Positions 14,161-15,474 of a stretch of 36,564 bases of DNA are shown here, piece by piece (position 1 is the first letter of the stretch; every line of letters begins with the position of its first letter). The DNA is taken from contig JAFAYW010000036.1 of the NCBI GenBank assembly GCA_019240125.1, forward strand, positions 1 through 36,564, written 5' to 3'. Under the pieces are notes generated by a model. The model was not told the origin of the DNA. It was given only the letters and a program-made list of their open reading frames with translations, and searched no databases. This DNA is from Alphaproteobacteria bacterium. GTDB lineage: Bacteria; Pseudomonadota; Alphaproteobacteria; ATCC43930; CGMCC-115725. The translations under genes were made by a program, and so were the position numbers.

Positions 14161-15474
14161 CTAGATGTCAAAGAGCAAACGGGATGGGTCTTCGACGCCT
14201 TCCTTGATGCGCACGAGGAACGTCACCGCTTCGCGGCCGTCGATGATGCGGTGGTCATAGCTCAGCGCGACATACATCATCGGTCGAATTTCGACCCGTT
14301 CAGCCCCTGGGTCGCCGACCGCGATCGGCCGCCGCTCGATCTTGTGCATGCCGAGAATCGCCGATTGCGGCGGGTTGAGGATGGGCGTCGACAGCAATGA
14401 GCCGTAGACACCGCCATTCGAGATCGTAAACGTGCCGCCCGACAGATCCTGGATCGTCAACTTGCCGTCGCGCGCCTTGCGGCCGAGAGCGCCGATTTCC
14501 TTTTCGATATCGGCAAAGCTCTTGGCATCGGCGTCGCGCACTACCGGCACGACCAATCCCTGCTCGGTGCCAACCGCGACCCCAATGTCATAGTGGTTCT
14601 TGTAGACGATGTCCTCGCCATCGATCTCGGCATTGACCGCCGGCAACTCTTTCAGACCGGCAATCGCCGCCTTGACGAAGATCGACATAAAGCCGAGCCG
14701 CACGCCATGCTTCTTCTCGAACGCATCGCGCCAGCGCTCGCGCAAGGCCATCGCCGCCGACATATCGATTTCGTTGAAGGTCGTCAGCATCGCCGCGTTC
14801 TGCTGCGCCTCCTTGAGGCGCTCGGCGATGCGGCGGCGGAGGCGGGTCATGCGCACGCGGGTCTCGCGCTCTCCGGGGTCGCGGACCGGCGTCGGGGCCG
14901 CGGGCGGTTCGCGCGGCGGCGCCGGAGTCGGCTCGGGCGCGGGTTCGCGCACCGGCGCCGGCGCCGGCCGGTCGCTCGCGGCGATCACGTCGGCCTTGGT
15001 CAGTCGACCGCCGGGGCCGGTAGGGTTGAGTGCCGACACGTCGATGCCGCTCTCGGCTACAAGTTTGCGTGTAGCGGGACCGGTGCGTTCGAGTACCTGC
15101 GAGCCTTGCCCCTCACCCTGTCCCTCTCCCCCCTCGCGGGGAGAGGGGACACTTGGCACCAACTCGACCTTGTTCTCCCTCGCCCCGCTGGCGGGGAGAG
15201 GGCCGGGGTGAAGGGCAGCCGTCGCCGGGGCGCCCGCGCCGGCTGCAATCGTCCCCAGCACCGCGCCGACCGGCACGTTGCCGCCTTCCGCGACGCGGAT
15301 TTCACCGATCACTCCCGCCTCGGGGGCCGGTACTTCCAGCGTCACCTTGTCGGTCTCCAGTTCGACGACCGGCTCGTCGCGCTCGACGCGATCACCCGGC
15401 TGTTTCAGCCATTTCGCGACGGTCGCCTCGGTGACAGACTCACCGAGTGCGGGCACCTTGATTTCGCTGGCCAT
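14161..15474 (-). CDS. sucB: Dihydrolipoyllysine succinyltransferase (2-oxoglutarate dehydrogenase E2)
   Basis: Core of the 2-oxoglutarate dehydrogenase complex; transfers succinyl from the lipoyl arm to CoA. It has 437 residues. The lipoyl domain (1-78) carries the lipoyl-lysine in ETDKV at Lys43. The peripheral subunit-binding domain is at about 131-165 ([29 protein letters not shown] region), followed by an Ala/Pro/Arg linker to about 205. The catalytic acyltransferase domain ends with [12 protein letters not shown]: His408 and Asp412. The first linker contains an insert, residues 87-122, encoded by a palindromic repeat (15109-15215; see that entry), with [12 protein letters not shown] and [13 protein letters not shown]; the frame stays open through it. 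ATG at 15474, GAGG upstream overlapping the odhA stop, 9 bp gap: translational coupling is likely. Confidence 0.95.
15109..15215. repeat. REP/BIME-like double palindrome inside the odhB coding region
   Basis: About 107 bp with three nested symmetries. The outer arms are CCCCTCACCC (from 15109) and GGGGTGAAGGG (to 15215). Hairpin 1 has CCCTCTCCCC (15122-15131) and GGGGAGAGGG (15138-15147). Hairpin 2 has a 12-bp stem with one mismatch (15178-15189 with 15192-15203) and a two-base loop. The C-rich/G-rich unit resembles the dispersed extragenic palindromes whose translation gives LTLSPxGRGEG-like peptides in many proteobacterial genomes. Here it lies within the E2 linker and keeps the frame. It explains residues 87-122 of the protein, which have no counterpart in usual E2 hinges. 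Confidence 0.85.

Follow-up and report, generated by a model that had tools for sequence, protein, structure and literature searches.

The 111-bp palindrome in the hinge of odhB, the gene for the E2 subunit of 2-oxoglutarate dehydrogenase in the window (the whole stretch of DNA analysed here, 36,564 nucleotides), is probably best explained as an in-frame copy of a dispersed family that arrived as a small non-autonomous mobile palindrome, with the hinge acting as a recurrent landing site at which one palindrome replaces another. Copies of the family are dispersed, their frames are open, and the occupancy of fixed protein loops is recurrent and exchangeable. Throughout, G000 is the window's own genome, and G, P and L numbers denote compared genomes, database proteins and loci.

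The palindromic element in the odhB hinge

The host gene, odhB (sucB), occupies 14161..15474 on the minus strand and encodes a 437-aa protein that scores above the cut-offs of TIGR01347 and PRK05704 and is the single match at E <= 1e-60 in its own genome. A profile search places the lipoyl domain at residues 4-76, the E3-binding domain at 132-163 and the catalytic domain at 203-434, and a spurious frame is ruled out since the gene lies above equivalog cut-offs with its domains intact. The first-pass annotation had described a double palindrome at 15109..15215 in the frame of the hinge between the lipoyl and E3-binding domains, and the symmetry, the open 437-aa frame and the E2 family models bear this out. 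The extent of 107 bp given there is slightly short: the place, the symmetry and the codons lying wholly inside (87-122) were right, but the type A copies among 18 aligned copies set the ends at TGCCCCTCACCC...GGGTGAAGGGCA, which gives a true element of 111 bp (15107..15217), two bases more on each side. This corresponds to 37 codons touching residues 86-123, of which 87-122 are complete, and to a translation designated type A (PHPxPLP...PSPR..GEGQGEG). The terminal inverted repeats, placed from the aligned type A copies, are 12 bp long with one mismatch, the left (TGCCCCTCACCC) at 15107..15118 on the plus strand and the right (GGGTGAAGGGCA as read on the plus strand) at 15206..15217 on the minus strand. 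Palindrome analysis resolves two 27-nt hairpin units, at 15121..15147 and 15176..15202, the second 89% like the first, which sit inverted in 52-nt arms that are 77% complementary. Could such symmetry be fortuitous? The RNA fold of 121 nt around the element has an energy of -83.7 kcal/mol (z -5.58) and the DNA fold of 107 nt of the element has z -5.12, with 0 of 200 shuffles as low in either case, and a chance palindrome is ruled out by folds so far below the shuffles.

The element had also been said to add about 36 residues. There are indeed 37 codons in frame, but the linker is not simply lengthened: the hinge measures 57 aa in the window, against medians of 45 aa (38-62) in 20 non-element E2s of the order and 55 aa (31-80) in 125 element-clade rows. 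The element has largely substituted for the usual Ala/Pro linker.

Copies in other genes and empty sites in relatives

A search of the 6.27-Mb own genome with the element unit returned many further copies, coding ones included, as 70 matches at E <= 0.01 (on both strands, with 40 of 47 candidates scored); for the fetched loci, a second query included, the matches form 55 clusters once merged, the window's own being counted twice. The same-genus genome G005 gave 85 matches to a 246-bp stretch that holds a related element of G006. These counts, to the unit and to the related element, indicate that the family is dispersed, with related subfamilies in several genomes. The hinge element of G025, used as query, matched 45 times in G025, 41 in G029, 39 in G034 and 83 in G006, and had no match in the G035 genome. 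The element in the UvrC loop of G004 (locus L293; 137 bp) is of another type, with 29 matches in G004 and 29-33 each in G004, G006, G007 and G034, and a copy of it also lies inside the Lhr gene of G007. Several copies stand at or near contig ends (L005, L008, L010, L217, L227), so the repeats may break assembly and copy numbers may be lower bounds.

Is the element itself built to code? Open frames number 3.5 of 6 in the elements versus 3.4 of 6 in shuffled sequence (70 pairings, not made unique), and a specially coding-ready element is rejected because the elements are no more stop-free than the shuffles. A structured RNA of Rfam was also rejected, the sole match at E <= 0.1 reaching 25 bits, far under the gathering score of 90. 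The inserted peptide, used as query, found four proteins: the window's own E2, a second E2 and a pair with a UreF domain. In the middle of P0004 and P0005, PF01730 proteins of which one bears the source name urease accessory protein, a translated type A palindrome is present, and such urease-accessory-type proteins are likely another landing site.

Twenty ORFs that span copies were scanned with Pfam, and eight proteins with NCBIfam. In UvrC the element lies within the RNase-H endonuclease domain, and the insert is clean because its flanks align contiguously to a solved UvrC (query 465-513 and 547-724 to residues 8-55 and 55-225). Mfd carries two units between its UvrB-interaction and RNA-polymerase-interaction domains, an Lhr-like helicase has elements in frame at two sites, a nitrate-reductase- or formate-dehydrogenase-like molybdoenzyme has an in-frame element, and in a bifunctional CofGH the element occupies the linker that joins CofG (74-395) to CofH (which begins at about 460). 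In-frame copies within protein genes, a mark of the Rickettsia palindromic elements, are therefore present. A hydantoinase-B tail ORF (L233:2458-3426) that spans a copy is set apart from the clear coding cases. ORFs without two-sided family support were not counted as coding (L006, L214, L219, L220, L228, L229, L232, L233:187-2409, L244, L250), as were ProB and NadD (L222), where the copy precedes the likely start. At L218:1798-3366 (minus strand) an APH-family ORF is followed in frame by a weak DUF6285 match with the element between them, either joining two fused genes or lying within one.

Are the same loops occupied in relatives? The Mfd loop, read for the 30 loci returned of 40 genomes with a match, is filled at the same point in three (double elements in G000 and G005, a single one in G007), and the empty site is seen in the DNA of G001-G004. 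The UvrC loop, read for the 30 loci returned of 39 genomes with a match, is filled in five, G000, G004 and G005 together with G011 and G020 of another genus, whose DNA folds have z of -4.6, -5.4, -7.6, -4.1 and -4.2, respectively. Three empty UvrC loops have z of -0.4, 0.0 and +0.2, a fourth of 21 nt being too short to shuffle, and loops of 26-33 aa (L288, L289, L290, L295) were called empty by reading, not by folding. Besides G000, Lhr was read in 7 of the 9 further genomes that gave a match, fragments in G001 and G009 being left out; by translation, site one is filled in G003, G006 and G007, site two in G000, G003, G005, G006 and G007, and site three in G000, G005 and G006, while G002, G011 and G014 are empty at all three. 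At site one the G007 insert coincides with the match of the G004 UvrC-loop element. The CofGH linker is filled in 2 of 9 rows, G000 and, by another type, G005; G001 and G002 may hold remnants and five others are without the element. The molybdoenzyme insert is absent in all five relatives that have both halves. The occupancy of a given protein loop varies between orthologues, some being empty and others filled, frequently with differing palindromes, and the proposal that insertion goes into tolerant linkers is backed by these further in-frame copies with empty sites in relatives.

AlphaFold2 models from shallow alignments (mean pLDDT 58 for E2 and 55 for UvrC) give pLDDT < 50 and no structure at E2 residues 74-122 and at UvrC residues 493-532, a stretch flanked by one strand and one helix of the RNase-H fold. 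This weakly suggests that the loops are disordered and that the proteins would fold around the insert, evidence that is thin because many conserved residues also have pLDDT < 50 (362 of 710 UvrC residues, conserved ones included, and 165 of 437 in E2).

Turnover at the E2 and UvrC loops

Comparison of relatives' E2s revealed no case of the same residues encoded by non-palindromic DNA. Among the genera of the order that were read, those outside the window's genus and one neighbouring genus have an Ala/Pro/Lys linker as the hinge. In these two it consists mostly of palindromes, which in the nearest genomes mostly differ from the window's: the double palindrome of G006 has different arms, a shorter palindrome is present in G025 and G034 and yet another in G029, the G002 hinge looks eroded, and no clear element was seen in that of G035. 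No near-clade E2 was seen with a plain Ala/Pro linker, and the E2 pattern is for this reason one of replacement rather than of a fresh single insertion. The first-pass annotation had suggested a process comparable to that of the Rickettsia elements, which holds for the dispersed in-frame copies and does not hold for a fresh single insertion at E2; mobility itself we infer. In the odhB of G034 (L237) a short hinge element is followed by loss of most of the E3-binding domain and the second linker with the frame open, a gap that is due to deletion or to an assembly fault. Five of the eight same-genus genomes, own included, have no odhB over the TIGR01347 cut-off (G001, G003, G004, G005, G007), and two of those five are 94-96% complete.

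Among the best 120 of 8000 scored E2 candidates from a set of 5.8 billion proteins, nearly all hinges read as palindrome translations, of at least three types. Types were assigned by regular expressions on translations and then corrected by hand, and most swaps are known from proteins only. Labels DA and D were merged into A (7 rows) and BA into B (1) before counting, L048 was reset to none, P0043 to A and P0084 to B, and P0100, P0109, L036, L033 and L032 were left untyped; P0002, a copy of P0001, was dropped, and P0053 and L031, nearly the same protein, were both kept. In a FastTree tree of 145 rows, with the hinge and the second linker (about residues 165-204) excluded, the 125 element-clade rows form one branch with support 99 (62 A, 32 C, 26 B and 5 untyped, hence 120 of 125 typed), and the 20 rows without elements need one change. 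The tree requires a minimum of 43 changes among types A, B and C (or 44 if the empty state is counted; the shuffled mean is 68.3), which overestimates what is secure because the tree is weakly resolved, with 23 of 140 inner branches well supported and 54 open; well-supported branches alone force seven changes for A, seven for C and five for B. Types A and B are clustered on the tree (0 of 500 shuffles as low) and C hardly (65 of 500), and there is therefore inheritance as well as exchange.

The type differs in 5 of 19 E2 pairs that are at least 98% identical outside the linkers and in 103 of 232 pairs at 95-98%. P0087 and P0090 are identical at the 336 residues compared outside the linkers and carry different palindromes, and the other four type-differing pairs at or above 98% all share P0063. 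Translations also reveal layered hinges, with a remnant of C and then a complete A in P0018, P0025, P0038 and P0061, and with a further palindrome at the tip of an A hairpin in P0029 and P0039. Paired changes in the two arms distinguish type A from type B and alter the reading frame within the hairpins, and most typed hinges begin in one frame (PHP).

For UvrC, the loops of the best 120 of 8000 scored candidates comprise 76 that are element-like by motif, 41 that are not and 3 that are unclear; 18 loops missed by the pattern were entered by hand, and P0124 and P0125 both come from the own genome. Element presence changes at least 19 times on the FastTree tree. In one RNase-H loop, four first inserts that are unrelated to each other (F, C, E and H), most of them recovered in more than one record, are distributed over P0200 and nine UvrCs whose identity to it, across 642-681 residues with the loop excluded, is 98.8-99.6%. 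P0173 matches P0200 at 678 of 681 positions beyond the loop, and their first inserts are unrelated. P0177 and P0211 are 99.9% identical. The second insert of P0173, P0177, P0179, P0189, P0190, P0194 and P0211 is preceded by a copy of GGDDYA, the motif after the loop, which resembles a duplication of about 18-21 bp. Database relatives P0167, P0169 and P0210 are named Stellaceae bacterium, which in the NCBI taxonomy is Allostellaceae, Rhodospirillales; P0135 is labelled Thiohalocapsa sp. by its source yet is 77% identical to the own UvrC, and perhaps comes from a mislabelled bin.

Origin of the exchange and comparison with known systems

How could unrelated palindromes come to succeed one another at one loop? 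We propose that a trans-acting transposase would move them in a REP-like manner, leaving no target duplication, and that they would insert into or beside older palindromes, the moving enzyme perhaps preferring palindromes as targets. Selection would keep only in-frame, stop-free insertions in tolerant loops, element codons would be translated as part of the proteins, and some of the exchange may be due to recombination among alleles or among copies. None of 34 pairings of terminal inverted repeats (which include alternative pairings of some copies) has an abutting direct repeat of >= 3 nt, the shuffled mean being 1.5, and REP-type mobility fits better than a classical MITE because there is no target duplication. 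A search for a cognate transposase with the Y1_Tnp profile only gave one weak match in G000 (23.9 bits, cut-off 23), with no element found beside it in that region, and none in copy-rich G005. A bolder version, which we offer tentatively and consider rather unlikely, is that the E2 hinge, the UvrC RNase-H loop, Mfd, Lhr and CofGH are fixed cassette sites in housekeeping proteins, where unrelated palindromes would be actively written, overwritten and nested in frame, such that strains of one species would make different enzyme versions; this would amount to genome-wide linker-shuffling with its own putative palindrome-targeting enzyme.

An alternative hypothesis is that the swaps are homologous recombination, in which loop alleles pass between strains or species, or dispersed copies convert one another via shared arms, and transposition into genes is rare and ancient. 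Conversion would be easy between A and B, which share an architecture and have similar outer arms and whose labels cluster on the tree beyond the shuffles, and the single change of the non-element group means that the E2 clade may trace to one ancestral filling. However, inserts C, E, F and H read quite unlike A and B, empty and filled orthologues occur within one genus for Mfd, UvrC and CofGH, and the layered hinge remnants look like insertion, such that we regard recombination as possible but on the unlikely side. Another hypothesis is that the hairpins are kept for a job, either as mRNA structure that slows the ribosome between domains or as a selected acidic, Gly-rich linker. The strong RNA fold and a rise in D+E per hinge from 3.4 to 6.5 would suit this, but the stem varies freely in sequence and the element in type, the other genera read manage without, and the inserts lie in unrelated proteins, which makes such a role improbable. 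Single ancestral insertion with vertical inheritance and divergence by point mutation, the types being stages of decay, is consistent with the common branch of the 125 near-clade rows, the shared PHP frame and the eroded look of G002 and G035, but is very improbable: it is contradicted by proteins of differing type whose remaining sequence is 98-100% identical, provided that they are not artefacts, and it sits badly with the frame-shifting paired changes between A and B and with empty orthologues in other genes. Misassembly, by which short-read assemblers joined flanks to wrong repeat copies, is scarcely credible, for although the sequences are from metagenomes or MAGs as far as the records tell and some copies lie at contig ends, the UvrC C loop recurs in separate records (P0179, P0189, P0190 and P0194, possibly from overlapping samples), P0200 represents a 90% cluster of 38 members and shares its loop with the G004 locus, 545 of 549 residues being alike outside it, frames are open across the joins, and empty sites occur in five genes.

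The mobile palindromes of the preferred reading resemble several known systems. Rickettsia palindromic elements are described as dispersed palindromes of about 100-150 bp that lie in frame in unrelated protein genes and are tolerated (Ogata 2000, 2002, as related in PMC10969869 and PMC3733652), and by that description palindrome size, dispersal, in-frame insertion in unrelated genes and tolerance are all shared. In contrast, the elements here belong to another bacterial group, are GC-rich, and are of several types exchanged at one loop between near-identical proteins. With REP/BIME elements they share short palindromic units in many dispersed copies, paired in inverted orientation. The account of GTAG/CGTC REPs (Di Nocera et al. 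2013; PMC3733652) describes inverted pairs inside ORFs, many in DNA repair and recombination genes with excinuclease ABC included, reports that recB of X. campestris and recB of X. oryzae have different REPs at roughly one site, and suggests that REP insertion may be neutral in flexible linkers or loops; its main text holds the term 'UvrABCD', and odhB, sucB, uvrC and mfd are absent from it as terms. The same account lists TGTC as a variant of the CGTC tag and says that A-T pairs open CGTC stems. In the 18 copies here the tag after the terminal CACCC is TGTC (in some type A copies), CGGC, GGTC, CAAC or others. The difference is that here the tag is not conserved, A-T pairs are lacking at the stem foot, terminal repeats are 12 bp long, and turnover is seen on trees and at 98-100% identity in two proteins. 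Intragenic ERIC/RU MITEs are described as small non-autonomous repeats with open frames fused to genes (Delihas 2007; PMC2759123); this too applies here, with terminal inverted repeats of the kind given above, but neither a target-site duplication (0 of 34) nor, by the Y1_Tnp search, a parent transposase was found. The odhB element family is filed as a variant of coding palindromes and not as a member of a named family, because the target duplication of MITEs is absent and the REP tag is not conserved among copies.

In the open-licence literature no title or abstract was found to name these elements, and, apart from the remark on Xanthomonas recB, no description was found of unrelated coding palindromes that replace one another repeatedly at the same protein loops. 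The loops offer a natural series for the rate at which non-coding mobile DNA becomes protein, for the tolerance of a folded enzyme and for the relevance of linker content, and a warning that some peptides of real proteins in these genomes may derive from repeats. Most of what is known of coding palindromes comes from Rickettsia and scattered intragenic REPs; in the present case, the same loop of a conserved enzyme is found empty, filled or refilled, in comparisons that range from different genera to near-identical proteins. What appears to be new is the turnover: in several genes of a single clade, unrelated coding palindromes would be exchanged at fixed loops, even between near-identical proteins.
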